From Jaapia argillacea MUCL 33604 (Eukaryota; Basidiomycota; Agaricomycetes; Jaapiales; Jaapiaceae), in assembly GCA_000697665.1 (NCBI GenBank), contig KL197709.1, positions 935,539-999,538 of the forward strand: DNA of 64,000 nt. The letters run 5' to 3'. This document shows, piece after piece, positions 37,638-61,503 of the stretch. A program made the position numbers and the translations under genes. Numbering within the stretch: position 1 is the stretch's first letter; every line of letters starts with the position of its first letter. The notes beneath the pieces are model-generated. The model made no database searches. It was not told the DNA's origin and saw only the letters and a list, made by a program, of their open reading frames with translations.

Positions 37638-38963
37638 CTACACCTCGGCTGGCTCGTTCCGAAGTTCAATATCAAGGCTCATAAAGTCCCGTGCACAAAT
37701 AACCTCCCCTCCAAATTCCTGCATCGCGAGATTTTTGATGGCCATCATCACAGTCCTCGCTTCTTCATCGACGTGATCATTTCCTGCATATCTCGCAGAG
37801 AAATGGTTCAGGACCAGTTTCTTAGCGCCAACTCGTTTTGCGAAGGTTCCAGCCATCTGTGGTGTCGAGTGTCCCCTCGACTTCGTTCGCGCTTCCACGG
37901 ATTCGAAAGTATCGTCGTCTTTGGTATTCGAGTCGATGCCAGGTAAATGAGCGTTCGTCGCTTCGTGGATGAGGAGGTCCGCATCTGCCGCCAACCCACT
38001 TATGGGAGATGGGTCATGGGTATCCCCAAGGATCACGACCTTCCGTCCAGGTCGTCGAGCAGGCCCGTGAAGCACGGTCCCATCTGAGAGCTCAACGCTA
38101 TCTCCCTGCTGCAGACGGCTCATCGTTGACATGGGTGTCTTCGTTCTCTTGAGGGCGGGTATATATTTCTTTGGATCCATCTTTCCTGGGACTGGTGCCT
38201 CCAAAATCACGAAGCCCACGCTTGGGATTGAGTGCAAAATGGGGGCTGCTGATACGGAGACCAGTGGATCCTTGTAAATGTCAGGCCAGACCCCATCCAC
38301 TTGGATGATATTTCGTCCGTTGGGCGACTCGGAGCGGTGACGAGGGAGAGCTGTGTAGTCGCCTTCGGGAGGGTCATGTGTAAATCGGAGTTCATGGACC
38401 ACATAAGGGTGTTCCAGCAGAGAGTATGTGTAGGCAAGTCCATTGCGAACATATGCCCGTGTCCCAAGAGGGCCATATATTTCCAATGGCTGAATATGTA
38501 CATGGGCGATCAGGGTATTGTCCACAAAGAGTCTAAATCGCATAGCTTCACTCACATCCTGCCAGCGAGCCGGATCTTCTCGCAATCGAGGATCTTGGGC
38601 GTCTTCAACAGCCCCTCCCGCACCGTTCAGCCGGCTGCATAGCAAGGGTAAGAGGCCGAAGATATGGTCGCCTGCGTGCTCCACCGGTGGTGATAAGGCG
38701 AAGGCGAGGCGATTGAATCGATCAAAGGGCTCACCATGAGTATGGGTAATGAAGATCTTCTTTATCTTCCCTGCTTTTACAGTGCTTTTCTGTATCTGGT
38801 GCTGCGTGGCTTCTCCACAATCGAAGAGCCAGACATCTCCGCCGAGGCGCAGAGCAAGGGACGAGTGATTCCTCGTTGAGGAAGGTTGAGCTGAAGCTGT
38901 CCCCAGAAAGGTGATATTCACAGACGATAGTGTATTAGACAGTGGAGGTCGACTAGGCACCAT
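37638..38963 (-). CDS. tRNase Z, short form (ELAC1-type)
   Basis: The frame is open from 38963 to 37638, but a canonical 63-base intron (38734-38672) must be removed, giving 420 residues. The enzyme is a metallo-beta-lactamase-fold endonuclease that cuts the 3' trailer of precursor tRNAs. Motifs are FLGTASAQPSSTRNHSSLAL, LFDCGEATQHQI, the zinc motif THTHGDH (after splicing), the ILGDTHDP region, LLIHEATN with the aspartate-histidine zinc ligands, and LVLNHFSARY. Reading through the intron keeps frame and inserts 21 residues between THTHG and DHIFG, which would split the HxHxDH metal site. The exosite region is compact, as in short forms. It lies tail-to-tail with the THO gene, with only 32 bases between the stops. 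Confidence 0.93.
   Translation of the reverse strand: MVPSRPPLSNTLSSVNITFLGTASAQPSSTRNHSSLALRLGGDVWLFDCGEATQHQIQKSTVKAGKIKKIFITHTHGEPFDRFNRLAFALSPPVEHAGDHIFGLLPLLCSRLNGAGGAVEDAQDPRLREDPARWQDVSEAMRFRLFVDNTLIAHVHIQPLEIYGPLGTRAYVRNGLAYTYSLLEHPYVVHELRFTHDPPEGDYTALPRHRSESPNGRNIIQVDGVWPDIYKDPLVSVSAAPILHSIPSVGFVILEAPVPGKMDPKKYIPALKRTKTPMSTMSRLQQGDSVELSDGTVLHGPARRPGRKVVILGDTHDPSPISGLAADADLLIHEATNAHLPGIDSNTKDDDTFESVEARTKSRGHSTPQMAGTFAKRVGAKKLVLNHFSARYAGNDHVDEEARTVMMAIKNLAMQEFGGEVICARDFMSLDIELRNEPAEV
38672..38734 (-). other. In-frame intron inside the tRNase Z metal motif
   Basis: 63 bases, GTGAGC..CACGCAG, a multiple of three without a stop. Retention would insert 21 residues in the HxHxDH motif, most likely inactivating the enzyme, while the reading frame continues. 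Confidence 0.8.
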
Positions 38964-39134
38964 GGTGAACCTACAGGGGCCGAAGAAGTCGTTGGAGACA
39001 CTACTTCTGGTGCAAATACTTGGCGATTATCAGTCGTGCGCGTGACTTGGACCGACAGACATATACCGGCTGGAACGTGGAGGAAAAGTGATATTCGTAG
39101 AGACATGCGTACAAGACTGGACGTGGGAAAGGTA

Positions 39135-41407
39135 CTATACATCCTCAAACAACCTACACCGCCTGTAATGCGCAGAGGTACCACGTTGGATGTCTGAACG
39201 CCTGACCGACTGAACGATACTCTCACCGCAGACGTAGCAGAAGTGGCTGATGAGAAGGATTACCACCTCGATCAAAACATCTCAGTCGTATGTGGAGGAC
39301 GTACGTATTGCATCCCGGAACCATGCACTACCGCACGAAAATTTGATCAGAATGGAGAATTGAACAAAGACAGGGTGGCGCACCGTCATATGGTTACAAC
39401 CGTCAACTTTCTCAGCGGGTGTCATACAACCTGGGCCCACGGAGTCCCAGTTCAGTTCTACAAGATGTGGTGGTACGAAGACAATGCGAACCTGGACAAT
39501 ACTTCCAACCTCGTTGCTGCATCAAGTGTTTCAACTCCGAAGAGCCATCGCACGAATGCTTTGGACCTCCGATAACGATGGATCGAGAGCACAACTTGCA
39601 CCATGCGTATGTACAACGAGGCATAGGGCAGGCAATGATCTCAGTCTCATCGTGTTCTTGTTTGTCAACGAAGACAGTGTTCTTGCACCTGAGGCAGTGA
39701 GTCAGGCAATGTTTTCTGGGAAGGGAGGATAATGTCACAGACTCGCGACAGTGAAGCAGAACAGAGAACTTGGACATTTCAAATTCCTCGAAAGTCGAAT
39801 ATTCTTTCTCGGTCAGCCCAAGCTGGCGAACTAATGTGTCTGTCAAAACTGGGTGAAAACCGGTCAGCTAAAATTGTGACGGCCAAGCCAAAATTTACTA
39901 ACGTCCTTGTTCGTGTGGGTTAGGTTCAGACGTGGTGGTGCAAACTGGACAGAAAATTGGGTAACGACCGTCTCCTAGTTTGGAACGAACATACTGTCGC
40001 GTGCAGGCCCGACAGAAGAGGTGATCGCACCGGTCGAAGCGAGTGACATCACCTTCGGGATGTTGATCGAAGCAAATGCCGCATTGGAATAGTTTTGGAG
40101 CGGCGTCGCGGAGAAACTTTTGTTGTTGTCGCAAGAGCAAGTCTTCCCGTTCGTATTCACGCTGCATGCGCACGGCGTATTCTGAGTCGGGATTCTCGCT
40201 CCTGTTCCGCAACAGTGAAGCTCTAGAGGAATCGGCTACATCCCTTGGTGATGCAACGCATGCAACGGAATGAGTGGAGGTGGAGGAAGCAAGAGTGTTG
40301 CGGGTTGACTCAGTGGCGGGGAAATTTTGGATGGGACGGATGGGCTGCTTCTGCTTGCGATCCAAGGGTCGGCGCTCAGACACTCTCCGACGGTTGAGTT
40401 CGTCCTCGAGCTTGTTGATATCCTCAACGAGCTGCCTATTCTCGAGCTCCAACGACCGTTTCTCGAGTTTAAGACCCTCCACTTGGCTTTGCATGGCCAA
40501 AACCGATAGACTGGATTCGATAATGGCGTCCATCCAGTCGGGTGGTAACTGTGGTGCATCTTTTGCCAGACAAACGTGCCCAGAATAATTCGCCAACAGT
40601 TGGGCCTGCCATTGCATATGAACGTCTGCAAGAAGGCTGCGATCGTATTGCAGAAGTTCGCTGAGGTACGTCGCAGTGGCGTCTAGAGAATTATTGAAGA
40701 TGAAAGCGGCCCCGTGGGGGTGCTTCCTGGGCCGTGGGTGAGAATCGAAAACCACAAAGACATTGTTGTCTGGCATTTTGATCTTTAAGCACGCGATAAT
40801 CTCAGGGGGGCGCGTGATGACCACAGACGACGACCGATTGTTACCGACATCGTTCAATCGACTAGATTAACAGCGGTAAGACTAGCTGATGCTCCGCGAG
40901 TAACGGTGAACTTACTTCAATAGTTTCTTGAAGTTCTCCAGGTCAGATTGCGCATACTCAATTCCAACCCTTGTAAGAGTTTGTTGGAACAACGGAGCCT
41001 TCCAAATATCGTCGACGTCCAGGTGGGACGAGTTGGACCAACGTAGACAGATGTTGAGGATATTCTGCTTGGCGAAACCGTGGGACTTCGTTCGAGGAGG
41101 ACAACATTCCACGTACCTCCATCATTCCTCGACTCATCATCTCACGGAGTAGAGCCACTCCAGTCACTCCAGCCCTTTCTCTACTCAATACGATACGCAC
41201 GCAGTTCAAGGCGGCCAGCCCGCAAGCTGAAATACCACCACCAACCCCACTATACTGGCTAGTTCCCCCATGGGAAGCGATGTGCTCCTTTCCACGGAAG
41301 ATATTCTCCACAGGGTCGACCTCGTCTTTCTTTGGCATTGCTCGAGAGGGTATTGCGTGGAAGGGGTCGTGTGGGTTGCAAATCTGGCCTTGATGATTCC
41401 GTTCCAT
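39135..41407 (-). CDS. RBR-type E3 ubiquitin ligase with an N-terminal papain-like protease signature
   Basis: Eight exons (41407-41117, 41064-40916, 40861-39903, 39848-39743, 39688-39492, 39430-39384, 39327-39305, 39246-39135) give 627 residues. The C-terminal half is a complete RING1-IBR-RING2 unit. RING1 is near residues 407-454 (CGICFDQHPEGDVTRF .. FCPVC). The IBR contains ACPMPRCTYAWCKLC. RING2 is CPGCMTPAEKVDGCNHMTC followed by CNTHFCYVCGE, with the catalytic Cys (about residue 584) in HMTC. RBR ligases pass ubiquitin through that cysteine. A coiled coil (about 275-315) precedes RING1. The N-terminal 270 residues carry GGGISACGLAALNC (Cys about 62) and VFVVFDSHPRP (D-x-H about 186-188), the pattern of a papain-fold ubiquitin protease. 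A 23-base exon encodes part of RING2. The 5' end is uncertain: no ATG lies upstream in the same exon. Confidence 0.85.
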
Positions 41408-41793: not shown

Positions 41794-44700
41794 ATGAATT
41801 CGCCTTTTGCCCCTCCTAATATATTCATTGATATCGATCCACCAATTGATGGCCCTGCGAGCGGTGCGATTGACTATCCCCCCTTGCTGTGTCTGCTACT
41901 GACAATATGTCTTCTAGGCCCAAATCTCAGCGAACATACCGAAACACAATTCTTTGATGCTCTTACGCCCAATGTGAGGCCTTCGGATCAGCGTTCTCAC
42001 TACAACGATTGACACTCATTAAACAGGCCTTGAGCGTCGTTGGTATAGGGGTCCCTGGAGAAGATGCTATGGTCGATTCTAAGACTAACCAGTCGCTGCC
42101 TCCCCCGCAAACCAGCGATCTTGCACACCGCATTCCAGGGCTCTATAGGATTCTGGACTTGGTCAGTGAGGCAGGCAGCGGTGGATTAGGTTGATCCTCT
42201 CCCCATGTTGTCTCCCTCACTACTGAAGTCGTCGAAACAGTGGACAAGGTAATCATCGCCCAGGAATCTCTTGGGCAATTCGTGAACTCTCTTGTACCTG
42301 GTGCCTACACCTCCCTCACAAAAGTTGATTTTGGCCTACTTGACAAAGCTTCTGTGAAACCGATCGGAATATACGGAAGCAAAGCTGAGATAGTGAAGTT
42401 CCTTAAATCCCTTGATATTGTTGACGACGAGTTGTAAGGTATCCTTCGATCTTTTGTTGCAGACTTCTGACATTTCACATAGGGCCGCAGCACTGTTACT
42501 CCCTCAGGGAAATCCCGCGGGGATCAATTCTCCTCACCTTCCGCCTGGGTTGTATGTAGTTTCCTCGAATATGTCCACCGTGACCAAGGAGGAACGCATA
42601 TTCGTTATCTTCTGGCCCGAGGAGACGACTTGGAACGATGACGCTTTGTCGTCGGTCCGTCGGAACAGGGTAACATTCATGCGGTAAATGGTCACCTTTG
42701 GTCCTCTCATATGGGAATTGACGAAACCTCCAGGTATCTCACGAAGATAGCAGATCAAGTCGTCTCCCTAATTTCTCCGGAACATTCACAGTCACTTGTA
42801 TTACAGGATGACACTGAGGACTCCGTCTCTCTGGGAGTCGATGACGACGAGACTGATCGCTTGTTCACTTTCGAAGTTGAGAAATCAACTGAACAAGAGG
42901 AGGGCGTTTCGTCCAAGCCGGGCTTCACGGTACATTCCCCCTGCCTGTCCTCGACTTGCGCCTTACGTCATTTGCTTTGATAGTTACAATTGCCAGCAGT
43001 TTCTGGCGATAACCGGCTTCCTGATGATCATCCAATGGATGAACGTCAGTTTGAGCCTCGCTTGGTCTTTAGTGACACAAAGCAAGCGATCGTGGACGTG
43101 ATGTATCTCGCTGCCTCCGAGAAGGCCTATCGTATTGACGGGAAATTACGAGCCGTCCAGCTTGAGCACGAAGTGTCAGTCGAAATTCCACTTCTTGTCT
43201 GTCGAGGTCTCATCATAGCCCAGACGAGGTTCCATTGAGCTCGCCGACTCTCTCTCCGAGGAGGCGATACGGATCCTCGTCAACCATGGATTGAAGTCGC
43301 GCCAGCCAGAACTTTGTGGAAAGTGGCGATCCCGTGTCGATGAAATCGAACAAACTCACCGCCGCATTTTGCAAGAGAAGGAGGCGGAGATGGGTCGTCG
43401 CCTTGACAGTGAAAACGATCAACTTGAGGCCCTCGTCCGACATACTCTTATCGATTCTGTGGCAAAATCGTTCCAGTATGTGATGAGCCGTTTGTGAATT
43501 TCTAATCGCTGAGCAATGTCCTTCGGCTAGCTGCTTTACCTATCACGATATTGATCCGACGCTTGCTGAACCTCCTCGCCTTCAAGGTGAGCACGCAGAT
43601 GACCTTCAATTACTCTTGCCTTCTTCCCACAGTTATCTAGGCGGCGTTCAAGACCTGGTGGTTCTGTATCCACAGGCCGGAGACCACCTTCAACAGGCCA
43701 TTCAGGATCGAGATTTCAAGATACTTTCAAGAAAGCGATTTCAACAACTCAAGGAACGACTGATCATTCTCGACCATATTTTCCGGACCCGCAAAGATCT
43801 TGAAGCCACGGCCCGCCGAGAGCTAATTGAGCTCATCTACAGGGATGGAGAGTTTAGCAAAGCCTCCCAACTTCTAGCCCAGTCAAGTGGTGAACAGCCA
43901 AGGCGTTTTTGGAGCGCCCAGCGGTTCCTTGACTGGTTTACGGGAAGTAACTCCATCGATGGCCTCGATATCCGAGACTTCGCGTTCAATGCTGATGACG
44001 CGAAGTTTCTCAACGGCGTCGACAATTTGGTTCAAATCGAACCTCTCCTCGACGAGCCAGTCTCACAGGTGAAAGAGTTGGGCCTCGAGAGTCTTCAGGA
44101 GACCATCAACAAGAAGACGACATCCACCCGACACCGCATCAGGTCGGTTCAGGAATCAGAGTGCAAGAGGCATATCCAAAGAGAAACTGAATCCGAGAAG
44201 GAAAGCCAGCTCCGACACGCTCGTGCTGAGCTCCTCAACGCGCTCAAGGGCAAGCTTCTGCAACCGAATTCGCCGTACGTCATTTTGAATCAAATTGGCT
44301 CGTTATATGAACTTTGTTATTTCGTAGCTCCTACCTGGTGTTAGAAGATATGAAGATCATCTCGGCGAGCAACAGGTGGAATCCGGGTGCGATTGGCCCC
44401 TGCTCATCCTGATTCGCTTGGCTGACTATTTATTAGATGCATATCAAATGATAGGCAACAGGGTCGTGCAATCTCAGCCCGCCTTGCAATATGTTGTTCA
44501 TCCTATTGAGCTTACCGAGATGGATCGACACAACCTGCAATTAGATCCTGACATCGTCCCAACTCCGAAGGCTCATGCGAACTCAGCGTTTTCATTCTGT
44601 TTGTCTCCGGACCAGACGATACAGTACGGATTTCCTGCATACTCCCACCCCTGTGGCTGATCGTTTCACGAAGGTTGTTCTACATCCTAGAAGATGGTAA

Positions 44701-47700
44701 ATGTCTTCTTGTCATTGATGATCAGCGTGGCTCCATCTCTGTCTTCCTCGAGTCATCCAACTCCATTGATGGCGCGCTTCGAAGACCTGAAAAAGCGAAG
44801 AAGACCCTGCGTCGTGATAAGTTGGGCAAGCATTTCCTTCTTGCATTTGACGAAACGAGGCGGATCCTGGCGGTGTGCTCGACACCGAAGGTGAGGATCT
44901 ACTTCGCTCATGGTCTGATGACTTGAACCTGACTCGACTGCCGTAGCCGAATCTTCAACTGCATGTCTTCGCTTTCGACGAAACATACACCTCTCTGCAG
45001 GGAATTGGCAGTGCTGTCAATCTAGTTCCATGGTACGAAGGTAGCAACGCGATTCTGGGCATGGCGTTCGTCTCCGGGAACGAGGAGATAGTATTTGTTG
45101 ATGATAGTGCCAGAGCTCGCATATTCTCGTTGGTGACACAACAATTCCGGTGAGCAAGATTCAGACGGTATTCGATGAGGGTTAATGTGCGGCAATAGTC
45201 CTGCTTCCTTGCAGTTGCAGCGAGTTCCGTCATCCATCTTTGCTTCTCCGGACGGCTCTTGCCTCATCGTCATGGAAAAGGACGAACTTGGACATTCCTT
45301 CAAGGCATACCACTGGACCAATTTTGGATCTGCTGATGGCATCTCCTTGGATATGTTTGGTATGGACGCTGATAGCTTTGCCCTCACATCGCTCGTCAAA
45401 CGCAATAACGTCTACATCTTGTCCCTCGACATCAGTTCCCGTCGTTGCGACTCGGTTGCACTGCGCATCACCAGAAAGATTACGGAGTTTAGCTTCAGGC
45501 AAAAGGGTGGCGCAAAGGGTAGCGGTGGAAACGAGGCTGGTACAGCCCATAATTCATTGGTCGACTGCCATGCCGAGGTTTGGACTCGCTTTCCCGTTGT
45601 TCCCGCCGTCCGAAGGAGGACCATCTTGTCATCCTCCGGCCGCAGCCGCCGTCATATCCGATTCGTGACCCACCACTACCACTCCTCCTTCAAGCCTTAT
45701 TTCAGCAGGCTCATCGCGACCTTTGAGAAGACTACTCGAAAACCTGTCGAGACAGAACTCAGTGGTATTCTCGCCGACGCTGTTGCCTTCGAAGACTGTT
45801 GGAACGTCCAGCCTCCGATTGTATCCTGCTTCAAAGCAGGAGAGTGGCTTGTGGATATTTTGTGTTTGATTCCCATCCATATCGCCGTCACGAGGGATAA
45901 TAGATTTGTCCCTTTGAAGGATGGTGTCTTCTCTTCTGGGTTGGAGCGGTCTTTGTTGGGAGCGGACGTGGGACAGATCGTTGACCACCTATCGTTTGGA
46001 TGGTACGAGTCTGTATTTCGCTCGTATATGGCTTCAAAAGTAAGCCGCCATCATTTCTCTTGTCAGCGTCGACGATCGTTAATTTGTGTAGCCGGTAAAG
46101 GTTGTGTCGTCGATGGGTAAAGTTCTTTTCTCTTGGTTGCTGTGCAGATTCTTATGGTCTGCTACAGGGGAGCAATCAGTCGGCAAGAGCTTTGCCCTTA
46201 ACCATCTCGTTGATACTTCTTTTGCTGGTTCAGCGATGAGGACAACGGAGGGTGTTTGGATGTCAGTTGCGCCGACAGAGGACTGCCTTATTGTTGCGCT
46301 TGACTTCGAAGGTTGGTAGCAAATTTATTCACATTTATTCACCCCATGTTCAATCACAAGCTGAGCCTCCCCCAGGCGTCCACAGTATCGAGCGCTCCGC
46401 TCAGGTTCGCCCCCATGTACAATATTGTAGCCGTTGTGCTAAATTCAGCTCAGGAAGATATGTTACTCGTCCTCTTCAACACAGCCATATCCAACCTTGT
46501 AGGCGATTGCTAATGTATCCCCGCGTCGCGTCTAATTCGTTTCCAGGTACTCTTCCGTAATAATTTTGCCCTTTCAAGAGACATTGCGGGCTTATTTCAG
46601 TCATTTCAATCTTCGTCATCGGTGCTTGACCCGGCTTCAAATCCGACACTCTTTCAGTCAACTCTCGCAATCATTATCAAGGTACTCCCTTTGCTCTGTA
46701 ATGCCGACGACAGAGTGCATGACAGATACACAGGATGTCGTTGATTCTGATGCCACGGAAATTACCCGAGAGTATGAAAATCCAACTTTCTTGGGCTGAT
46801 ATTAATTAAATTTTCCACTGCAGATTTAGTTTGAAGTTTAATGATATCGTTCAGCTGGAGCAAGGCTCAAATTTCATCTCCCGTCTCCATCGCGGGAGCC
46901 TGCATATTATCCCCTGGCCTGTTATCGAAAGCAGAAAATTCTACACCCTCTTCTCCGCGCTCAAGAAGTGTCTTGACAAAGAGCGCGTCACACATCCCAG
47001 CGGGGGTGTGTTTTTGCAGACGCTGAAAACGCTTATGGCAAAACTGAAGGTACCAACTCCACCCTATACGAGTTACCATTCATTGATTCACATAACATTG
47101 CCGCAGGCAAATGACTGGGGCGCACTCTCTCGTCCGTCCTCACATATGTCCTTGTTTTCATATCCTCATGCTTTAACCTTCTCAGAAAACCTTGCTTCCC
47201 ATCGAGCTCATCATCTTCGTTCATTGCTCCCCAAAGCCCTGGCTTTTGGAGCTACGGAAATGGATCCCGAAAGAGAACAATTAAAGGTCAGTACAGGTTG
47301 GTATTTCTCTCCGCAGTGCCCCAACGTTATAACAGGACTTCGACACCGATATGCCAATCGATCACAACGACGGGGGGATGGTATTCTTCGTGCCAAACAC
47401 AAACTCTGAGCCGGATTGGACTGTTGACAAAGCTCTACCTTGCTTACGCGCCCCTTGGCAAATACAAAACGAGCGGCATATCAGACCTGACTCCGAATGG
47501 GTTCACGATCTTTCGGCATATTTGGACAGCCTTGCAGACCAACGGTTGGAGTATGTCCGGACTTGGATCTCCTGTAACACTGCCCGCTTCACTACCACCA
47601 ACGCAGATGTGGAGGCCCTTCGCAGAGAGCTGGAATCCATGGCAGTGGATTTGAAATCTGGCGTGAAGCTCTGCTCTATGCAATGTGCCTCTTGCAGCCT

Positions 47701-50700
47701 TCAGTGCCTGAATAATCGCCACCACGACGGCCCACATGATTGCGATACCTCCCACAACTGTCCGAGAACGTGTCAGTTTAGTGACCAGCACGGCTCTGAC
47801 GAACCGTGTGGACTGCGGTAAGTTCGCCTTTGTCATTTGGCACCATTGCTCATTCTTCTACAGGGCAGGCCATCCTGGCGACCATATGTGAGTTTCGCGT
47901 TAAATCCGTGAAGATTTAGATAGTCACCCCAATTTGCAGCTGTGATATTGCGACCCACCACTGTGGCCAGCCCTGCCACTTGAAGGATAGACCTGGATGT
48001 CTTGGTCACTGCGTTAAAGTAAGTGGAACTTACGTGATCCCCACCGTTCAGCAACTTAAGCTATTTGTGTAGGTGCTCAACCATGCTGAAGAAAACCACC
48101 TCTGCTCCGCCACAACCCACGAGTGTGGTGAGGTAAGCGTGAAGAGTTGTCATATTGAGGTCCTTCGCCTCACCACCAAGGCAGCCCTGTTCTCTAGTTG
48201 ATGTCCAGGTCGCGAATGGCCGTGTCTATACTTGCGCCGGAACCTGCCGTATTCCAAGGTATGCTGAGAAACTACTTCTACTAGGAACTTTGTTCAAGAT
48301 GACCTGGCCCACATAGTCATCTTGCACATGATCGCCATATCTGCGAAAATCCATCCTGTCCTATACAATGCCAGCTGTGTCGTAGATTGTGCGATAGCCA
48401 AGACCATCTCCATCCCTTGGGTCCCGGAGCGGTCCATCTTTGCGGGTGCGTTATCCCCACGAGTGTTCTTTCCGCCCAGCTGAATTCAGTCTAGCCAAGA
48501 ACACTCTTGCACAGCACTTTGTGCCTCGCCTGGTATCTGTCAAATAGAGACAGCCCCACAGTCCATCGAGGCCACCTTTTCTGGCCGGAACGAGACCTTC
48601 CAATATACCAAGGTATGCCCGTCGAATAATTCGTCGCTCCGAGGTTAATCTCGTCCGCCGGGCCGCAGTACACCCAAGGTTTGCCAAAATGAACTGGTAG
48701 TGGAACCGTCCTACGTAATATTGACTTTCAACCCGATTTCCAGCATCAAAACGACTTCCATGTGCTGTCCTTGTACCCGCTGGCGAGCTGTCCCACGATG
48801 GACCCCATAACCATAGTCTGACCTCTGACCCATTCCACTACTGCGAAAACACGTACGTGCAGTCTACATCCTCTTGCGATCACTCGGACTCAAGATCTCC
48901 AAGGTGTGAGAATTGTGGCTACTTTTGCACATTACCATTAGGTATTTCCCCGCCACGCTCTATGCACCTCGTTTCTTGATCAGAATCGCAGGACACCCAC
49001 AGCAGGAACATGAAACTAGTCATGGATCTATGTCGAAGACGCGATGGGTTGTTGATGGGCCGGATGGTACAACCTACGAACTCGATGGGCGTAACTTCAG
49101 CTCTACTGACGATGGGGCGCCGATGTTGTGCTCCCTGGTTTGTCAATCTATGGGCAGGCACGTCCACATCGACTACTGTCGCAAGGACCCGTTGTCGCCC
49201 ACGTGCACGGGAGCCGAAACTCAGCATATTACTGCACGCATGATGCCCAACCCCGAGAGGCCGAAAGATTGGATAAGCCACAAGTTGTTTTGGAGACGAA
49301 CTGGTGTGTAAACCCTTCATAAGGCGTGTAGTCCTTCTAACCTTGCACCATAGGATTCAAAGGTCAAGATTCCCGTGCAATATACGACAGTTTCAAGTAT
49401 AGTTGTGACTCTTCTTTACAGACCCTTACTCGCAGGAAGACCAAACCAACTTTGCCAAATGGTACGTGGCTCACCTTCCACAAGCTTCGTATTCTTAAAC
49501 CGCCGGTCCAGTGATGCTATGTGTGGAGGTACTCCTATAACACCGGCGTCGTTGAAAGTATGACACAAACATTCCCTAGATCCCGAACATTCGGCCAATG
49601 CCAATGCAGCGGCGCAGCCATCGTATTGCAGTCTTCCGGTGTTCCATCCGCCTCAGAGGTTAGACCAGGCTCCAGCCGGACTCGGATACGTCTCGAACGA
49701 TGGGCATAGTTTCCTCTGTCGAAATCCTGCTGTTATGAAACAAGCTTTCCATGTGTAAGCCAAATCGCTCCCAGCACATTCTCATATACTAATACCCCAC
49801 AAGCATCTTCGTTATCGATAGGTCTGTTCTGTGTCTGCCCCGTGTCCTTGAGATTGGAACTCTGATCACCAACTCACAGGTCGGGCTCCATGTCATTGAC
49901 CGACCGTCGCCCACTGGGGAACACCCCAGGAACGGCCCGTATCACCAATCGGGCAAACAATCGACTCGGTTCTGTGTATTCGTCCTTGCATGGCTTTTGG
50001 TTGGCGCGCCATGCTGCGTTGAATGTGGGCGGAAATGTGGCCCAGGCTGCTAGGCGAGATGCTTACACTGTCCTTCTATTCAACTCGGCCGTGTCGACAT
50101 GCATCGAGAATGATTATACTCGCTCTCCCGACCAACTTCTCGATGCCGTCCTGCCTTCAGCTGCCAGCGGAGGCACCAACTTCACCAGTGCTCTGCAGTG
50201 CGCTCGGTCGTGTATGGAAAGGAACTGGAGCACGGAGCGGTCCGTGTTTTGTTTCCACCCAACAACGTTGTCGCTCATTCTCCATTGACAGCACGCCCGT
50301 CATTATCTTCCTCTCCGACGGAGAATGTCACGTTGAAGATACGGTCGTCCAAGACTTATGCCGTCGGGCCATTCACCTTGGGTAAGATTTCTTTGTTACT
50401 ATTTCAGTGGTCAGCGGCTAATGGCAGTCGCGACAGGAAATCCCTCTCGTTCCATGCCGTGTCTTTTGGACCGCGGAGTGAGGTTCTGCGAAGGATGGCG
50501 CAGATTGCTACTGATATCCAACGAGGAGCCCCCCCTGACCCCATCAACCCCCCTGTTATCTCATCGTATACAGAGGCGTTGGATACTGTCAGTCTCATTA
50601 CCCTGAAGTTCTCGTTGATTGTCCTGCTGACGAGTATCATATACAGATCAGGCTGGCGGAAACATTTTTAGGGCTGGCTGAGTCGTTGAGGAAACCGAGG

Positions 50701-50721
50701 GGATCCCTTCTACGTGGTTAA
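41794..50721 (+). CDS. Giant GTPase / zinc-repeat / vWA protein, copy A
   Basis: A gene of about 8.9 kb with more than 30 short introns. I estimate roughly 2,200 residues. The order is: an unrecognised N-terminal module (RIPGLYRILDLVSEAGSGGL, then GIYGSKAEIVKFLKSLD and LPPGLYVV); a charged helical region (about 43.2-44.3 kb); a beta-propeller-like region of repeated strands (LEDGKCLLVIDDQRGSISVF, SPDGSCLIV, RITRKITEFSF; about 44.4-45.6 kb); and a GTPase at 46.1-46.7 kb. The GTPase has P-loop GEQSVGKS, switch TTEGVW, a DFEG motif and a SRDI candidate G4. A Cys/His array follows at about 47.6-49.3 kb. A vWA domain follows at 49.8-50.7 kb (VIDRSGSMS with an intact DxSxS, then FLSDGEC). The GTPase type is the GBP/RHD3/VLIG dynamin branch. 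Coding looks intact at every junction I followed. Its role is unknown. Confidence 0.85.
46093..46320 (+). other. GTPase G1-G3 segment of copy A
   Basis: The exons encode VKVVSSMGEQSVGKSFALNH, then TSFAGSAMRTTEGVWMSV and IVALDFEG. The P-loop GxxxxGKS is split by an intron after the first Gly. TTEGVW supplies the G2 threonine and DFEG stands for the usual DxxG. The resemblance to RHD3/Sey1 and VLIG GTPases includes the following segment IERSAQEDMLLVLFNTAISN. Confidence 0.75.
47650..49300 (+). other. Cys/His zinc-repeat array of copy A
   Basis: At least five repeats share H-x(2-6)-H-x-C-x(3-5)-H/C-x-C-x(2-3)-C. Examples are HHDGPHDCDTSHNCPRTC, HPGDHICDIATHHCGQPC, HAEENHLCSATTHECGEPC and DRHICENPSCPIQCQLC, with GQEHSCTALC after them. 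This is followed by CENCGYFCTLPLGHPQQEHE. The regular spacing predicts several bound zinc ions. Introns fall between repeats at similar phases. Confidence 0.7.
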
Positions 50722-51229
50722 AACTTAAGCAGTCCCATGGTAGTACCAATGTACGATATCCTTTCTTGACATATTTGGACAACGGCTTGGCGCCGATACT
50801 TAGGCTCACTGCCGACGATTGATATGTAAGATCTGTGGAGATTTCGAGTCTCGTAGAAGTATCCCATCAGTAATCCGAAAATCTCGCAGAGGTCAGCTGT
50901 CACATTAACACGTGACATCGGTGTGACAGGCTGGTCAATATCATCGACCTCGACCACGCATCCGTTACTATAACTTACAATTCAACTGAGTTTGCTGAGA
51001 CTTGCACGGAGCGCTTTAGTCTTGCCATTCCGAGACTGAGAAGCTGTGTGCGTGTGTAAGCGAAAACACGGGTTCAGCAGTATCTTGATTCCTGGCGTCT
51101 AATACGCGCCAAAAACCAAGATTGCTGTACACTGTATCTCACTCTGCTTGAGAGTTCCCTGCTCGAACAAACGACTCTTTTTCCTCGCCTACTCCGCAAT
51201 ACTTACAAGCCCACTTGATCTCACCAGTG
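50722..51229. other. Spacer between the tandem giant genes
   Basis: About 508 bases. One leftward frame of 79 codons (50957-50718) has no recognisable feature. The sequence upstream of copy B is not similar to that upstream of copy A, so the promoters have diverged or were not included in the duplication. Confidence 0.55.
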
Positions 51230-54200
51230 ATGGTTCTTCCGGTGGATATGAACGAAGATGCCTCCTCCATTGCCTCTCATGCTTCCGAAGGTACGCGTCA
51301 TCATTCAGTACACCTTCAATCAGACAATCGCAATGACCCTTTCCACAACTTCTCAGACGCGGTATTTTTTGATGCGAGCGATGTCATGGTGAGTGACTTT
51401 TAATCTAGTCGGTGATCGCATGTCTGAAACTCAGCATCCTGTGGCAGCCGCAGGACGACGATAGCCAATCATTTGGATATAACCATATCAGTCCCGTCTC
51501 GAACCCTGTAACATCCGCCAATGATGCCAGTGCTACTTCGTTTCGGTCGGCCCTCGACTTGGCGCTTTCAATTCCAGGGCTTTACAGGATCCTGGACTTG
51601 GTCAGCGAGCAAGGAAGTGGTGGTCTGGGTAATCTCAGCGACTCTCTGCACATTATCCATTCACTGATTCCGTTATCATAGTTGACAAGGTCATCATATC
51701 CCAAGACTCCTTTGGCCGCTTCATGAACGACCTGTCCCCTGGAGCGTACACATCCCTGACGAAAGTGAACTTCAATATCTTGGATCGGCTATCTGCAAAA
51801 CCTCTTGGCATCTACGGAAGCAAATCCGAGATAGTGAAGTTTCTAGTATCCCTTGGTTGTGTAGACGAGATGACGTGAGGCCGCTTCGTCTCACAGCCAC
51901 CTCTTGAAACTCACACTGTGCTAGGAGCCGATTATTGCTCAATTCCCCTGACGGCTCTTTCCTCCGTTCAGGGTTGTATATCCTTCGCCCCAAGTCTGGA
52001 AAGGCTTCGACGGATGGGTTGGTTTATGTCATATACTGGCCGGAGGATACTACCTGGGATGACGGCGCCGCATCAACTGTCCGACGAAATAGAGTAACAT
52101 TTATGCGGTAAGTTATCCCGGCGCTCTCCTGAATTTTGATAAATTGCTCATTTCCGGTTGAAGCTATCTTTCGAAGATCACTGACCAGACCGCTGCACTC
52201 CTCTCAGACGATCATGCCAAGAGCCTTCTGTGGCAGCAAGAATCGCACGATGCTGTATCTGAAGCCAGTTATCTGGACGATTCTGACCGACTCTTTACCT
52301 TTCATGTCGCTAAATCAACTGAACAAGAAGAAGGCGTGACTTCTAAGCAAGGCTTTACGGTATGTATCAGAAGCCTCTGATGCTATTTCCTGGTGCTTAA
52401 TATCATCTGGTTCTGAAAAGGTTGACTTGAAGATGTTCCCCATTTTATCTCGGGGGGAGGACCATGCTAGTCGATCCGACCTGCGATTGAGCCTCGTACC
52501 CGGCGAGACGAAGCAAGGAATCATGCATGTGCAGTATGTTCCTGCCAGAGAGGAGATTCGAAGGTTCAACACAACATATCGAGCTCCTCAACTAGAGGCG
52601 GAGCTGTGAGTCTCCCCCCGCCGAACATCCCATATCTTGCTCATATTCGTTAGGCGAGGTTCTGTTGAGCTGGCAAGAACTTTGTCCCAGGACGCTGTCG
52701 CGATTCTCATGAAGTATGGTTTACGGAAGAAAGCGCCGGGAGCTTGTGCGTCATGGCATTCCCGTATGACTGCCATCGAGGCGAATGCGAAAACTGCTTG
52801 CCACGAGAAGGAAGTAGAAATGCGGGCTCATCTCGACAACCAATCCAGAGACATTGAGCAAGCTGTCTCACAAACTCTAACCGCCAAAGTAGCCGAGATT
52901 TTCCCGTTGGTTCAATTCAATTTCACCATTGGCCCATCTGGGCTCATCCTATCCTTATAGGTGCTTTCCTGTTGAAGCGCTGAGGGATGGTAATGCTGAA
53001 CACGACCCCACCAGTATGTTCCTGTTGCGGTCAGTGTTACGTGTCTTCTCACCCACGGTTTAGATGCCCTGCAGCATTTACAAAGTTTTCATCCCTCTGC
53101 CCACCAATATCTTGAAGATGCGCTGAAGGATCCAGCCCTCAAGAAGATATCGAGCCCTCAGTACAACACTTATAAAGAACGTCTGATTATTCTCAATGGC
53201 GTCTTCCGTAGTCGCGAAGACTTGGATGGGAAGCGCGAAGAGCTGATCCGCTTAATTTTTGGCTCAGGCGAGTACAGCAAGGCTTCTGATCTGTTAACCC
53301 AAGAGTCAGGCGAGCAGCCGAAGAAACCTCAAGCAGGCTGGGGCGCTGGCAGATTCATCAATTGGATCTCAGACACCCTAAGCAGCGCCACGTCCCAAAG
53401 TCGTGTCGATTTTCACCAATATGACTTTGAAGGCGATGATGCAATATTTCTCCAAACCATTCTGTCCTTCGTTGACTTTGAGCCTCTCCTTGCGGAGTCT
53501 GCTGCGCAAGTGAGGAAGATGGCATTGGACAGTCTTCGTTCTTCCATCATAAGGAAACTCCACGTGATTTGCTCGCACATTAGGTCCATTCAGGAAGGTG
53601 TTTTGAAGAGACAGGTTCGCCACGAAGTTTCGTTCGAGAGAGATCAGCAGTCTCGAGCCGCTCTTGAGAATTTGCTTAATACTCTTGATGGTCACCTATG
53701 TAATGACCGAGCTCCGTGAGTCTGTCACAAGTTTCTATTGAAGTCTTCCTAACACAGCAACTCCTTAGGTACACATTCATAGTGGAAGACGTCAAGGTTG
53801 AATCGAGTGGAAATTGGCCAGGTGAGGGAAGGAGATTTGCGCTTGTGCTCTTGCTGAACCCGCTGCTGTCCTAATAATCAAGCTCTTCGGATCGTCGGCT
53901 TTCACCGTCTGCAGACGGACCCTGCTTGGCATCATACTGTGCATCCTTTGGAGCTTACAGAGCAAGATAGGCACAATATACAACTAAATTCGCAACATGT
54001 TCCGACCCCCAAGATGCCTACCACTGCCGTGTTTTCCTTTCATCTCTCCGTTGACCAGTCATTGTTGCAAGTTCATCTAGATCTTGTCGGTTCCTTCCCC
54101 TGCTTACCCAATTTGACGTAGGCTCTTCAACATGTTGGAAGATGGGAAATGCCTTCTCGTTATTGGCGACAGCAGTGGGAACATCAATGTTTACTTAGAA

Positions 54201-57200
54201 GCTCGTGCTGCAGTTGATGGTGCCCTCCGTCGACCGGAGAAGACCAAGAAGAAATTCCACCAGGACAAATTGGGTGAATGCTTCCTTTTTGCATTTGACG
54301 AACGCAAACGAACACTCGCTGTTTGTTCCATGACCAAAGTATGATCCTCGTCTCTCCTTACACGTATCCAGTTAAAATGCTGATGATTGTCTGGTAGCCC
54401 GGGATTCATCTATACATGTTCGTCTTTGACGAGACCTATACATCTCTCCAAGGGCTAGGCAGCGCAATAATCTTGACTTCTTGGTACGATGCGGCGACCA
54501 CGATTGTGCACATCGCCTTTGTGAGCGACAATGACGAGATTGTCCTTATCGATGATAGTGCCCGGTCTCGAGTCTTCTCACTTATAACTCAGCAATTTCG
54601 GTGAGTTTCCTGGTTGCTTGTCTCAACGCGGCGAGTCTGAATCGCGATTCTCCTTCCATTATAGCCCAGCCACCTTGCAACTCCACACTGTTCCTTCCGC
54701 TATTTATTCCTCTCCCGATGGATCCTGTCTCCTGGTCAAATTTGGTCAGGAAAGGACAGCTGACTTCAAAGCTTTCCACTGGAGCAGCTTTGGGTCCACA
54801 GAGGGAATACCCTTGAGTCCTTTGGTCGAGGGAGATGCCTACGTCTTGACGTCCGTTGGGAGGCGCAACAATGTGCACCTTGTGACGCTGAGCCTAAACA
54901 TCCATCGCTGCCGGTCCTTGTCATTACAAATCACTCGAAAGATCACGGAATTCAGCTTCAAGCAAAAGGGCACTGCTCATCACTCCCCCACCAGCCAGCA
55001 TGGTACCTCCCGCAACTGTTTGATAGATTGTCATTCCGACGTATGGACACGATTTCCTGTCATTCCTGCGGTTCGCAGGACGACCCTCTCGTCAGCTGCC
55101 CGTTCACCGCCTTCACTCCAATTTGTCAGCGGCCGACGTGATTTCCCTTTCCAAGTGTATTTCAAACATCTCATCGCGACTTTCGAGCGAACTACAAGAA
55201 AGCCCGTTGAGGTGGAACTCAGTGACATCAGTATCTCCTCCGTATCATTTTCACAGTTCCTCGCCCAGACACACGATGAACTTTCCGTGTTTCGTGCAGG
55301 GGAATGGCTTGTCGACATCTTGTGCCTCATCCCAATTCACATTGCCGTCACAAGAGATAACAGATTCATTCCCCTGAAGGACGGCGCCTTTTCCATCGAG
55401 TCAGAGCAAAGTTTGCTCGGTGCAAATGTTGGCCAAATTGTTGATGGCCTGTCTTTTGGTTGGTACGAGTCACTTTTCCGATCGTACATGGCCTCCAAGG
55501 TATGCACACATACACAGTGATTGCCCGTGGTTGTTGAAAGCTCCCTCCATAGCCTGTGAAGGTTGTCTCCTCAATGGGTGAATTTCCTTATCGCCCATAT
55601 CTGGTACTGCGCTTATACTTTGTAGGTGAGCAATCAGTGGGAAAGAGCTTCGCCTTGAACCACCTAGTCGATACATCATTCGCTGGCTCAGCCATGAGGA
55701 CAACCGAAGGTGTCTGGATGTCGGTTACTCCGACAGATGACTATCTCATCGTGGCCCTCGATTTTGAAGGTTTGCTCCCTGCAGATCTTTATAGACCGTC
55801 AAATTCATGATCATTATAGGCGTTCATAGCATTGAACGTTCTGCTCAGGTGTGTCCTTCAGCTTTGCAATCATCTAAGCTCTGACACATTCGTATTTCAG
55901 GAGGACATGTTACTAGTTCTCTTCAATACCGCGATCTCTAATTTGGTTGGTCCTACTAGTAGCTCGCGTCGTGATACAATGGATCCACTCAGGCCCCTCT
56001 TCACAGGTTTTGTTTCGCAACAACTTTGCTCTGTCGAGAGATATCGCGGGGTTGTTTCAATCCTTTCAGTCGTCATCTTCTGTTCTTGATCCTGCTGCAA
56101 ATCCCTCACTTTTCCAATCTACCCTCGCGATTATCATCAAGGTTTGATGACCATCACCGCACCCTCGTACTACACACTAAACTAAGTGACCTGTTCTAGG
56201 ATGTCGTAGACTCTGATGCATCTGAAATTACTCGAGAGTATGTCCAGGGACCGCCATCTCCTTTCGTTTATTTGTTTCGCTCGGCTCAACACCATCTCTT
56301 AAAGATTCAGCCTCAAGTTTAATGACATCGTCCAACTCGAGCAAGGATCGAACTTTATATCTCGCCTCCATCGAGGGAATCTCCATATTATTCCGTGGCC
56401 CGTTATTGAGAGCAGAAAGTTCTATACTCTTTTCGCCACCTTGAAGCGATGCCTCGATGGAGAGCGTGTGACCCACTCCAGCGCTGGGGTTTTCTTGACC
56501 ACGTTGAAAACTTTGATGGCCAAGCTCAAGGTAAGCACCTTGTAACGTTGCGAAATCAAAGTTTGGGAACCTCATTAAAATAAAAGGCCAACGATTGGGG
56601 TGCACTATCCCGTGGGTGATTTTCATGTTCTTGCTAAGCTTTGTGTTGATTCCGAAACTCATAGAAAACCTCGCTGCTCATCGGGCTCAACAACTTCGTC
56701 TCTTGCTCCCCAGGGCCCTGGCCTATGGAGCCACTGAAATACAGCCTGTCCGGGAGCCCCTCAAAGTTGTCTTTTCAATAGTCCATCTCAGTGAAAACTT
56801 CATTCTGATGGTGGTTCAACAGGACTACGATAGCGATGCTTTGATACCCACCTCTGATACCAAGCTGGTACTGTTTGTGGCCAATGCCAGTATGGGTCCT
56901 GCATGGGATCAAGATGTCGCTCTTGCCAGTTTACGCCCAACTTGGGAATTTTACGGCCAACGACATTCTTATCAAGATTTGGAATGGGTCCATGGCTTGA
57001 CAACTCACTTTGACTACGTCACTCACCTTAGGTTGGAGTACGTTCGCGATTGGATAACGCGAAACACAGATCGTTTTCCATCAAACAATTCCGACATAGC
57101 AAATCTGCGACGAGAATTCGAATCGATGGCCGTCGACTTGAAGGGAAGCGTTCAGCTCTGTGCGATGCAGTGTTCACATTGCAATTTGTATTGTATCTTG

Positions 57201-60132
57201 AATCGTCGTCACAACGGCTCCCACGACTGTTGTACTTCTCATCATTGCCCGTCTCTTTGTGACTTCGTTGATGAACACATTGTTGTCGAGAAATGCGGGT
57301 TGAAGTAAGTTCTCTACTTCCAAGTCCGACTATTTATTGATGGATTTGTCTCAGGGCCGGACATGCCGGAGATCACTTGTCAAGCGATTTGCCCTCACTG
57401 CCCAAACACGTAGAATCTGACATTTTTCATAGATGTGACATCGCCCTTCATCTCTGTGGCCAGAGTTGTCATCTGAGTAATAAGCGTGGATGCATGGAGC
57501 GCTGCACAAAGGTAAGAGGCAATTAGATATGCATCTGATTTTTCTTACTGAGCGGAATCCTCAAGGTCGCAAATCATGAAGATGGTTTGCACGAATGTTC
57601 AGCGTCAACCCACGATTGCGGAGAGGTAGGATCCGATTCGTGGAAATGTGGCTCTGATGACCAGCACAATAACCAAATTCGCTCTAGCCGTGTGCTCTTG
57701 TCGACGTGCTGCTCCCTGATGGTCAACAGCACACTTGCCGTGGGACATGTCGTGTCCCAAGGTGAGTGGATGTGGCAGCCAGTCGCTCTGAAATCTGAAT
57801 CTCCTAGTCATATTCCTCACGATCGCCATGTCTGCGAGAACCCGTCGTGCCCAATCTCATGCCAGTTGTGCAAAAGGCTCTGCGACAGTCAAGATCACTT
57901 GCATGGTCTCCGCCAAGGCGTTACACATCTGTGTGGGTGGGTGTATTCTCAATCTGGCCTGGCCGCTACTGTTTCTTGACCACAACATTAGTCAAGAGCA
58001 TTCTTGCCGAGCCGTTTGCGCATCCCCGGGTATATGTCAAATTGAAACGGCTCCACAATCAATTGAGGCCACATTTACTGGACACCACGAAACCTTCCAA
58101 TACACGAAGGTGAGGTTATTTGTCGATAACTGTGTGGCACACACTCCCTGACACTCTTATAGTATTCTCAAGGTTGGCTTCCCGACCATGAATCCTCAGC
58201 CTATTGCTGAAAGTATCGTGATTTAGTTTCCAAAAGGTTGCCTTGCGTCATACCGATCCGGCCTGGCCAGCTAACGCATGAGGGAACGCACTGTCACACC
58301 ATCAGCAAAGACCCATTTCACTACTGTGAAAATCGGTGAGTTTCGTTCACTTTCTTCAACATGTGATGTCCCTGATAAAGACGAAGGTGTGAGAACTGCG
58401 GCTACTTTTGTACCCTCCCCCTACGTGAGTAGTTACTCGGGGTGCTGTTCAAGTATTTATCAATTTATCCAGGTCACACTCAACCCCTGCACGAGACAAG
58501 CCATGGATCGATGTCCAAGACACAATGGACCGTGGACGGGCCAGATGGCACCGTTTATGAGCTTGATGGACGTAAGTTTGGCTCCACGGATGAAGGCGCA
58601 CCCATGCTTTGCTCTCTCGTGTGTCGTTCAATGGGGAGACATGTACACCTCGACTACTGCCGCGCAGATGCAGCCGATAACTGCAGAGAAGCTGAAACAC
58701 TACACATACGAACTGCCATGATGCCCAATCCAACCCGGGCAAAAGATTGGGTCAGCCATAAATTATTTTGGATGCGTACCGGTTCGTCGCTGCCATGCCC
58801 CTACTCATTGTGGTTTTATTTGAGATGGATTCTCTACAGGTTTCAAAGGTAAGAGATAATGATCTCTATTTGTTCCTGATCCTCATTCATAATGTGATAC
58901 CGGATAGACCCTTACTCGCAAGAAGATCAGAATACTTTTGCCCAGTGGTAATCTGTTTCCATACCTCCATACTCGATAGAGCTGACAGCGCCCTCATCTC
59001 AGCGACGCGATGTGCAGCGGTACCTATCTGAATGAACTTCGGATGCTTCGTCCTCACTCATTTATTCGCAGGACCTGAGCATGTCCCTGCTCCGACCACC
59101 CAGGCCCAGCCTTCGTTCTGCAGCCTCCCAGTGTTCCACAACCCACAGCCACCCGACTCTGCCCCTGGAGGAGGATACGTCTCGCATGACGGGCATGTCT
59201 TCCTTTGCAAGAACCCTATCACCTTGCAACAGGCTTTCCATGTGTAGGTTGGTATTCTTCCCTCTCGCAACGTTGGATGAACCTATTCTAGGTTGTTTGT
59301 GGTCGATATTTCGAGCTCAATGAGCAATCGGGATCGCCTCCCTCTGCCAAATACACCGGGCAGCGAGTTGATCAGCCGACGTCACTTCAACAACAGGTTG
59401 GGGAGTGTTTTTTCATCCCTTTACAGGTTCTGGATCGCCCGCCAGGCTGCGTATGGTGCCGGAAATCCTCTGGCTCGAAGAGATGCGTACTCGGTGATCA
59501 TGTTTGATAGAGCCCCCATCACCTGCACCGAGAACGACTTTACGAGCTCCCCCGAGCAACTTCTCGAAAGTGTCCTGCAATTCCGAACTGGACGAGGAAC
59601 AAATTTTGGTGCAGCTATCGACTATGCTCGGCATTGTATGGAGAGAAATTGGAGCAGTGAAAGGTTTGTTGCATTGGCCCTCACTACGATATCTGAAAAT
59701 TGAATTATGCAGGTCACCTGTGATGATCTTTCTGTCTGATGGTGAATGCAGGATTGAGGAAGCGGCCATGCAAGATTTGTGCCGTCGCGCGGTTGTTTTG
59801 GGGTAAGCCATTTGCTCTGCTTGTCCTCGTCCGCTTAGAAAGGCTGCGTATCCAATAGGAAAGCGCTTTCATTTCATACCGTATCATTCGGACCTTATAA
59901 TGGAGTTATGCGGATGATGGCCAACATCGCTCGACAAGTTCAGAATGGCGCACCACAGGATCCACTGCATCCCCTTGTCCCGTCTTCTTATACAGAAGCG
60001 TTAGATTCGGTACGCATTTTTACCATAGTTCCTAACGCCCTTGACCAAAGTTTGCAGGTGCGACTTGCTGAGACATTCCTGGCCATCGCCGAATCGTTGA
60101 GGAAGCCAAGAGGTTCCCTGCTGCGCGTATAA
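51230..60132 (+). CDS. Giant GTPase / zinc-repeat / vWA protein, copy B
   Basis: A tandem paralogue of copy A with the same module order and closely matching intron phases. The start is ATG 51230 (MVLPVDMNEDASSIASHASE); the first 60 residues differ from copy A. The shared core runs from IPGLYRILDLVSEQGSGGL through the helical region (EELIRLIFGSGEYSKASDLL) and the propeller-like region (LEDGKCLLVIGDSSGNINVY). The GTPase is at about 55.6-56.1 kb (GEQSVGKS, TTEGVW, DFEG). The Cys/His array is at about 57.1-58.7 kb (NRRHNGSHDCCTSHHCPSLC, CDIALHLCGQSC, CSASTHDCGEPC). The vWA domain is at about 59.3-60.1 kb (VVDISSSMS, again DxSxS, and FLSDGEC). The C-terminus ESLRKPRGSLLRV matches copy A almost exactly. 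No stop or frameshift was found where I followed the frame. The most conserved parts between copies are GTPase and vWA. Confidence 0.85.
55556..55810 (+). other. GTPase G1-G3 segment of copy B
   Basis: The same split P-loop as in copy A (VKVVSSMG, intron, EQSVGKSFALNHLVDTSFAG), followed by SAMRTTEGVWMSVTPTDDY and LIVALDFEG. From EQSVGKS through TTEGVW the residues are identical to copy A, the longest identical stretch noticed between the copies,, which argues for purifying selection on nucleotide binding or for gene conversion. Confidence 0.75.
57150..58720 (+). other. Cys/His zinc-repeat array of copy B
   Basis: The repeats mirror copy A: HNGSHDCCTSHHCPSLC, CDIALHLCGQSCHL, HECSASTHDCGEPC, DRHVCENPSCPISCQLCK and GQEHSCRAVC, then CENCGYFCTLPL. 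Most Cys and His positions are kept while the residues between them vary, as expected for metal ligands. Confidence 0.7.
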
Positions 60133-60680: not shown

Positions 60681-61060
60681 TTATCCTAGAACCATAACTG
60701 GTTTGTATTTTTCGAATATCGAGATAACGAACCTCGGTGTGACCAACTCTCCATCGCTATATTCTTCATCCTTTCCCCCACTGGCGGCTATCGTGGCATC
60801 GTAAACTAAAATGACTCTGCTCCGACACCATAGTCGATACTTCGCCACGCTGCGTGCAGAGCTCAAGTCGGATAGGTCCGACGGGAAACCCGGTGCTGTT
60901 CAAGCTCGGTTCTGTGGACCTACGCAGGTTAGCCTTGTGAACAGAAGAAGAAGCACCCATCGAAGAGATTAGCTGAGAGTTGATGTCGAATGGGGGCATT
61001 GGAGTGAGATAGTTGAGGTAAAAAGTCGTCATAGCGCAGTATGCGTTTTCTTGTTTTCCC
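60681..61060 (-). pseudogene. Decayed copy of the low-complexity gene at 18.0-19.3 kb
   Basis: The minus strand here aligns with part of the second exon of the gene at 18003-19334, around its 18990-19130 segment. The peptide PPFDINSQ is shared, as are SSVHKANLR (parent: AVHMANLR) and TEPSLNSTG (parent: TEPSLHSTA). At the DNA level the run GACTTNTTANCTCANCTATC followed by TCCAAT and CCCCCATTCGA is kept. The copy has one extra base between TCCAAT and CCCCCATT relative to the parent. This puts the upstream match (DFLPQLSHSN) out of frame with PPFDINSQ. The downstream part is too diverged to read through. There is no start codon or first exon. I read this as a truncated, frameshifted duplicate moved about 42 kb away on the opposite strand. 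Confidence 0.65.
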
Positions 61061-61503
61061 GTTTTGCGAATCTGAGTCCGCGACCGACGTTTTTCCGCAG
61101 CTCTGGGTCTCAAGTCTTTGATGGACGTCGCGTGTCGTGTCGGGTTTGTCCGAACCCTCTTAGAGCGAGAATGGACTGTAATTTCTCTCCGGATCATTTT
61201 GGAGTCGTTTACACAACTGCAGACAGTAGAAGTGTCTCTCGGGGACCAACTGTGCGCTCCAAAATTATATGGTTTTGTCGCCAAGCGCGTAGTTCACAAT
61301 GGGTACCATTTAGCGTTGATACGCCACAGTTGCCCAAATTGGCGACATGTGTCAAGGACTGGTCTCGGGGACTTTGTTGGGAGACGTCCTAGGACTCGTC
61401 TCACGGTCCTGCTTGTGGCTGAAAGGAAAACGAAATTTCAAGTTTTCCACAAAGCGAAGAAAGGCGCTGTAAGCTGTGTTGAGCACAAAACGAATGTCCG
61501 AAT

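Follow-up and report, generated by a model that had tools for sequence, protein, structure and literature searches.

Two very large genes lie side by side at positions 41794 to 60132 of the window, the 64 000-nucleotide stretch of Jaapia argillacea DNA that was analyzed here, and they raise the question of what kind of protein would join a dynamin-type GTPase to a long Cys/His array and a C-terminal vWA domain, and what such a protein might do.

Structure of the two genes

The original prediction had placed here two adjacent genes of about 9 kb with one module order and matching splice positions. This was confirmed by spliced models of the two genes, termed A and B (Table 1), in which 37 introns coincide in both alignment column and phase, and the outer ends of the models, 41794 and 60132, are the same as those first proposed. 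The models were generated by a small exon-chaining script, and exon ends were then corrected by hand through comparison of A with B, so the agreement in splice positions is partly built in. Three further pairs of introns are equal in phase and offset by 1–2 columns, another pair of equal phase is offset by 8 columns within a gapped stretch, and two introns are present in gene A only. All 43 introns of gene A have GT-AG borders, as do 40 of the 41 in gene B, where the remaining one is GC-AG (54067-54121). The median intron length is 52 bases in gene A and 54 in gene B.

The two predicted proteins are identical at 1321 of 2179 aligned residues (60.6%). Comparison of the stop-to-stop frames of A with those of B gave 35 rows at E ≤ 1e-3, all in one collinear order and the best at 1.5e-119; a few of these rows are overlapping alternative frames, and the other rows of the comparison are self matches arising from 601 bases common to both query stretches. 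The stop codon of gene A and the start codon of gene B are separated by 508 bases, and these are thus two genes. From the N to the C terminus, both proteins comprise an N-terminal region, a helical region, a strand-rich region, the G domain, the Cys/His array and the vWA domain, the helical and strand-rich regions having been assigned by eye in both. The ~ 1150 residues that precede the G domain, including the conserved N-terminal region, had been absent from the original prediction. The C termini (GSLLRG/GSLLRV) carry no CaaX box. Two micro-exons, of 10 and 18 nucleotides, are predicted by the models.

Table 1. Positions of the two gene models and of their modules in the window.
Feature	Position	Strand	Residues	Basis or content
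Gene A	41794..50721	+	2218 aa	Spliced model, 44 exons, single terminal stop
Gene A N-terminal conserved region	42129..43588	+	77-460	Without Pfam family
Gene A strand-rich region	44466..45700	+	about 701-1060	Repeated strand-like motifs, by eye
Gene A G domain	46034..47115	+	1172-1390	GEQSVGKS, TTEGVW, LDFEG, IIKD
Gene A Cys/His array	47624..49161	+	1526-1860	CxxxxHxCxxxC cores
Gene A 10-nt micro-exon (predicted)	48669..48678	+		Counterpart 58163-58172 in gene B; preserves common frame in both
Gene A vWA domain	49741..50718	+		DRSGSMS..GTNF..FLSDGE; Pfam VWA_2, VWA
Gene A 18-nt micro-exon (predicted)	49804..49821	+		Sequence reading and alignment with B; MIDAS start IFVIDR/SGSMS
Gene B	51230..60132	+	2223 aa	Spliced model, 42 exons, module order as gene A
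Gene B strand-rich region	53909..55160	+	about 712-1069	As for gene A
Gene B G domain	55494..56595	+	1181-1399	Pfam GBP, RHD3_GTPase and URGCP_GTPase matches
Gene B Cys/His array	57111..58642	+		HxCxxxC count versus shuffles
Gene B vWA domain	59230..60129	+		DISSSMS..GTNF..FLSDGE; Pfam VWA_2

The surroundings of the pair were also surveyed. A RING-finger frame is present upstream of gene A on the reverse strand (39898-40866; Pfam zf-RING_2, 28.7 bits with a cut-off of 27.3), and a tRNase Z-like metallo-beta-lactamase frame at 37638-39026 has two Pfam matches, both just under the cut-off (26.8 and 26.2 versus 27). Further away are frames for a Sodium/hydrogen exchanger-type transporter (11798-12883; Pfam 99.3 bits) and an Acyltransferase (1337-2116; Pfam Acyltransferase 93 bits). 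Downstream of gene B, 61034-61293 is part of a dispersed repeat, with 250-260 base copies that are 91-96% identical at four other places in the genome and weaker or shorter copies at further sites. The adjoining ~ 140 bases (60888-61029) are 79% identical to 18994-19134 on the other strand, which falls within the open frame 18144-19334, and are perhaps a copied gene fragment.

The modules of the predicted proteins

The GTPase motifs GEQSVGKS, TTEGVW and LDFEG were located in both corrected proteins, such that G1 (GxxxxGKS), the G2 threonine (in TxGxW) and G3 (DxxG) are present in each. When the full proteins were searched against Pfam, the GBP family (PF02263) scored 21.8 bits for A and 22.2 for B, just over the cut-off of 21.1; RHD3_GTPase (PF05879) scored 31.7 (E 1.3e-7) and 30.8 (E 2.5e-7), below its cut-off of 42.4; and URGCP_GTPase (PF25683) scored 17.8 (E 0.0015) and 18.0 (E 0.0012) with a cut-off of 55. 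Searching with the G domain alone raised the GBP scores to 25.9 and 26.2 bits, while RHD3_GTPase (36.1 and 35.2) and URGCP_GTPase (21.7 and 22.2) were still below their cut-offs. These matches span only about the first 80 residues of the domain, corresponding to positions 16-98 of the 264 in the GBP profile, and the GBP match was absent at E ≤ 1 with the initial automatic exon models and appeared with the corrected ones. The nearest solved structures by sequence were GBP2 (8e-4), other GBPs and then Sey1 (0.0076 by profile). The proposed placement of the GTPase near the GBP/RHD3/VLIG (URGCP) branch therefore holds in that three Pfam models match both proteins, with GBP alone over its cut-off.

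A search of the genome with the RHD3 profile recovered genes A and B and, on contig 11, a further gene with a strong match (175.7 bits together with neighbours in the frame). The gene on contig 11, for which the spliced model is automatic, looks like a Sey1 relative, as named from family and motifs. When the G domain of the pair was aligned locally by profile with this Sey1-like protein, the alignment covered 77 columns (E 1.4e-7) and placed GEQSVGKS opposite GSQSTGKS, TTEGVW opposite TTKGIW, and LDFEG opposite MDVEG; at G4, IIKD stands opposite VIRD in a forced global alignment only. The pair thus resembles Sey1, RHD3 and atlastin in its P-loop (GxQSxGKS), in TTxGxWM and DxEG, and perhaps, going by that forced global alignment, in the Asp at G4. 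It differs in having Lys rather than Arg before that Asp, in a PF05879 score below the cut-off, in being about three times larger, and in lacking, by hydropathy, a membrane segment after the G domain, which is where that of Sey1 is located. Guanine specificity is presumed, and no more firmly than that since G4 reads KD and not RD.

The likeness to GBPs lies in the first part of the G domain, where the TxGxWM switch and DxEG are common to both. In GBPs, which are about 590 residues long in all, the G domain is followed by C-terminal helical middle and effector domains, whereas here it is internal and followed by the Cys/His array and the vWA domain; the absence of a CaaX box is a further difference. 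The arginine of the GBP P-loop (GLYRTGKS in GBP2; the comparison with GBP5 gave the same result) is replaced by Ser in GEQSVGKS. This arginine has a role in hydrolysis, and because the pair has Ser there, as does the Sey1-like protein, any hydrolysis would be expected to resemble that of Sey1 and not that of GBP1. With the VLIG, GVIN and URGCP proteins the pair shares giant size, an internal G domain and membership of the same branch, but URGCP_GTPase is far below its 55-bit cut-off and there are 42-44 exons here. We know of no Cys/His array or vWA domain in the animal VLIG/GVIN/URGCP proteins.

Hydropathy analysis gave no sign of a membrane segment C-terminal to the G domain, where the Kyte-Doolittle mean was at most 1.14 over 19 residues. 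Ahead of the G domain, a single hydrophobic stretch that also contains Glu and Asp is common to both proteins (19-residue mean 1.58), and its presence makes membrane contact possible. The stretch, AGEWLVDILCLIPIHIAVT, is identical in the two proteins (residues 1106-1124 in A and 1115-1133 in B; 45512-45571 region) and lies in the linker to the G domain. The introns at the start of the P-loop, 46117-46167 in gene A (51 bases) and 55578-55625 in gene B (48 bases), are open in frame, and their retention would thus insert 17 or 16 residues, respectively.

The Cys/His array described in the original prediction is conserved in both proteins, with all 34 Cys and 26 of the 29 His of the gene A array (residues 1526-1860) common to B. 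The motif HxCxxxC occurs five times in A and six times in B, compared with at most three in 1000 shuffles of the region, and all copies fall between residues 1569 and 1795; halves of the HxxxHxC type did not exceed the shuffle maxima (four versus four in A, three versus five in B). NF-X1 zinc fingers follow a family pattern with a CxxxxHxCxxxC-like core, and the cores of the array resemble them. However, no Pfam family, NF-X1 included, matched at the array, either with the full proteins at E ≤ 1 or, for gene B, with this stretch searched separately at E ≤ 10. The best PDB match to the array was a ferritin (E 0.044), taken as chance. Metal binding by the array would be consistent with its conserved Cys and His.

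The C-terminal vWA domain matched Pfam VWA_2 in both full proteins (37.8 bits for A and 36.6 for B, cut-off 27) and more strongly as the domain alone (44.4 and 42.4). The Pfam VWA family (cut-off 23.8) was over its cut-off in A (24.6) and below it in B (14.4). The DxSxS motif that had been assigned to this domain reads DISSSMS in B, and DRSGSMS in A provided that the 18-nucleotide micro-exon is used. The DxSxS and candidate Thr and Asp residues of a MIDAS are present in both proteins, the roles of these residues having been assigned by motif and not by structure. In the gene A model, the MIDAS motif is split by an intron (49822-49879) that has no counterpart in gene B. Profile comparison of the vWA domain with the PDB returned only CLCA-type and inter-alpha-inhibitor vWA domains (E 0.012 and 0.79).

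Towards the N terminus, the two proteins are 0.514 identical over residues 85-460 and 0.31 identical over the first 84 residues. No convincing Pfam family was found for the N-terminal and helical regions of the full corrected proteins, and the single match obtained when the gene B N-terminal stretch was searched alone (E 0.17) was taken as chance. The strand-rich region is possibly a beta-propeller, a guess on weak grounds. Its self-similarity scores were 21.7 and 20.7, compared with at most 16.1 in 10 shuffles, and the best hhalign P was 0.046; the higher score nevertheless counts as weak, since in the same self-alignment test the Cys/His array reached 20.1 and the N-terminal region 15.5. The strand-rich region had no Pfam match and no convincing PDB match, a capsid protein at E 0.67 being taken as chance. 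AlphaFold was run on two single exons, one of them from the strand-rich region, and the resulting mean pLDDT values of 32 and 43 were unusable.

Age, constraint and relatives

Conservation was studied on two sequences, A and B, of one genome. Four-fold sites are identical between the genes at 181 of 583 positions overall (0.310, where base use predicts 0.269). In the G region (residues 1150-1390 of A), the value is 26 of 107 (0.243; 0.271 expected), although protein identity there is 0.934 and rises to 0.961 in the G core (residues 1172-1300). Gene conversion as the source of the near-identical G domains was ruled out by this four-fold value. Chance-level four-fold identity together with protein identity of 0.93-0.96 is indicative of an old duplication followed by strong purifying selection, and the saturation of the four-fold sites makes any duplication age a lower bound only. 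Outside the G domain, 155 of 476 four-fold sites are identical (0.326, with 0.269 expected), a slight excess over chance. Values of 0.5-0.7 occur there in a few windows of 75 residues that contain few sites, so that saturation outside the G domain is near but incomplete. The remaining listed modules have a protein identity of 0.40-0.70. As judged from these comparisons, both copies appear to be retained under selection, with the G domain almost fixed.

The 43.7-Mb genome was searched with both halves of the protein, and the 21 and 27 matches obtained all fall inside A and B, with the exons of A matched one by one to gene B. The search scored the best candidates only and a distant member could escape it; on that basis A and B are the sole members found in the genome. 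A genome search with the Pfam GBP profile gave no match anywhere, its controls included, and is uninformative; the domain is probably split by exons. Further vWA sites in the genome were detected with the vWA profile, none of which was recovered with the half of gene B that contains the G domain, array and vWA domain.

Elsewhere, no relative was found in viral contigs, searched with short exact patterns from the G domain and the array-to-vWA stretch, or in prokaryote contigs, searched with such patterns from the G domain only, a method that would miss distant relatives in either set. In plasmids, the search gave two records from Listeria (E 0.2), of which one is annotated Era. NCBIfam gave nothing above cut-off, and a single PADLOC match (E 0.03) was taken as chance. 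Among the literature matches listed, mostly without subscription papers, no description was found of the full GTPase, Cys/His and vWA layout, in line with the original view that no named family has this architecture, nor was any found of a fungal giant GTPase of the GBP/VLIG type. The family may well exist, unnamed, in public fungal genomes, given that part of the literature and, among fungi, this genome alone were covered.

Mechanism and role

The favored interpretation of these data, to which we assign a probability of about 0.5, is that the old tandem duplicates A and B encode giant GTPases that are soluble and would form a GTP-driven scaffold and capture a ligand through the vWA domain. 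It is based on the nucleotide motifs, the lack of a hydrophobic stretch after the G domain, and the MIDAS residues taken together. As modelled on other dynamin-superfamily proteins, GTP binding would lead G domains of the same or of different paralogues to pair head to head, followed by higher assembly. The Cys/His array would serve as a metal-stiffened or regulated arm, the vWA domain would use a divalent ion to capture its ligand, a peptide or protein, and the nucleotide cycle would cluster, pull on or release the bound ligand. A G core that hardly varies, next to flanks with 40-70% identity, points to a common engine that has been kept while the capture surfaces diverged, and the kept G core is perhaps a heteromeric G interface.

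A comparable division of labor is known from midasin, which has a long linker to its vWA domain, and from the MoxR-vWA systems. The likeness, one of mechanism only, is that an NTPase motor is combined with a MIDAS vWA substrate receptor; the difference is that the motor is an AAA+ ATPase there and a dynamin-type GTPase here. In MoxR-vWA systems, a MIDAS vWA domain coupled to an NTPase captures peptide, according to PMC7159879.

The scaffold mechanism does not exclude the cellular roles considered next. A role in cell-autonomous defence or non-self recognition, as first suggested, is possible, if doubtful: the pair would be a fungal counterpart of the GBP and GVIN giant GTPases that polymerizes with GTP and then forms a coat around intruders or sensed structures, much like the coats of GVIN1 or GBP1. 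The G domain is related to GBP and URGCP by Pfam, and metal modules resembling NF-X1 are present in proteins of defence such as ZNFX1 and RNF213. The human giant GTPase GVIN1 forms coats on bacteria and plant GBP-like proteins act in defence, as described in PMC11974893 and PMC9005921, respectively. However, just two copies were found here, both old and strongly constrained, with a G core that is 96% identical, which argues mildly against an arms race; immune GBPs follow birth-and-death evolution, again according to PMC9005921.

It is unlikely that the pair acts in membrane or organelle remodelling as an atlastin/Sey1-like trafficking factor, which would be brought to membranes through a partner or through the hydrophobic stretch ahead of the G domain. 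That shared stretch is in its favor, as are the way in which the G domain aligns with this genome's Sey1-like protein, the common P-loop type without the GBP arginine, and a strong constraint compatible with a housekeeping role, but the post-G membrane segment is absent by hydropathy and the genome already has a Sey1-like gene. Comparably improbable is a scaffold for protein or RNA quality control, for which Rpn10, midasin and RNF213 are the systems of comparison and in which the array would bind RNA or ubiquitin enzymes and the vWA domain would be the substrate receptor. In favor of such a scaffold are the resemblance of the CxxxxHxCxxxC cores to NF-X1 fingers and the RING-finger frame, the end of which lies some 0.9 kb upstream of gene A; against it stand the lack of a Pfam match at the array and the consideration that adjacency in a fungus is no evidence of a common pathway. 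Finally, that modules of several neighboring genes were wrongly joined is very improbable, for although the exons were joined without RNA evidence and several tiny exons were required, two loci preserve the succession of modules, the phase of most introns and some 2220 codons of open frame, and this agreement persists with four-fold sites at or near chance.

Beyond the soluble GTP-driven scaffold, a bolder proposal is put forward as a speculation that we consider rather unlikely, namely that A and B would form a heteromeric GTPase pair in which a MIDAS vWA capture head is operated, via a metal-repeat arm, by a dynamin-type engine in the place that an AAA+ motor would take. Capture machines of this kind, driven by nucleotide, would form a new class and might represent the fungal branch of cell-autonomous immunity of the GBP/GVIN type. 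The pair could show whether dynamin-type GTPases can power vWA capture in the way of AAA+ motors and, if it does link this engine to vWA capture, would offer tractable genetics for the original role of the branch, be it in defence, trafficking or quality control.
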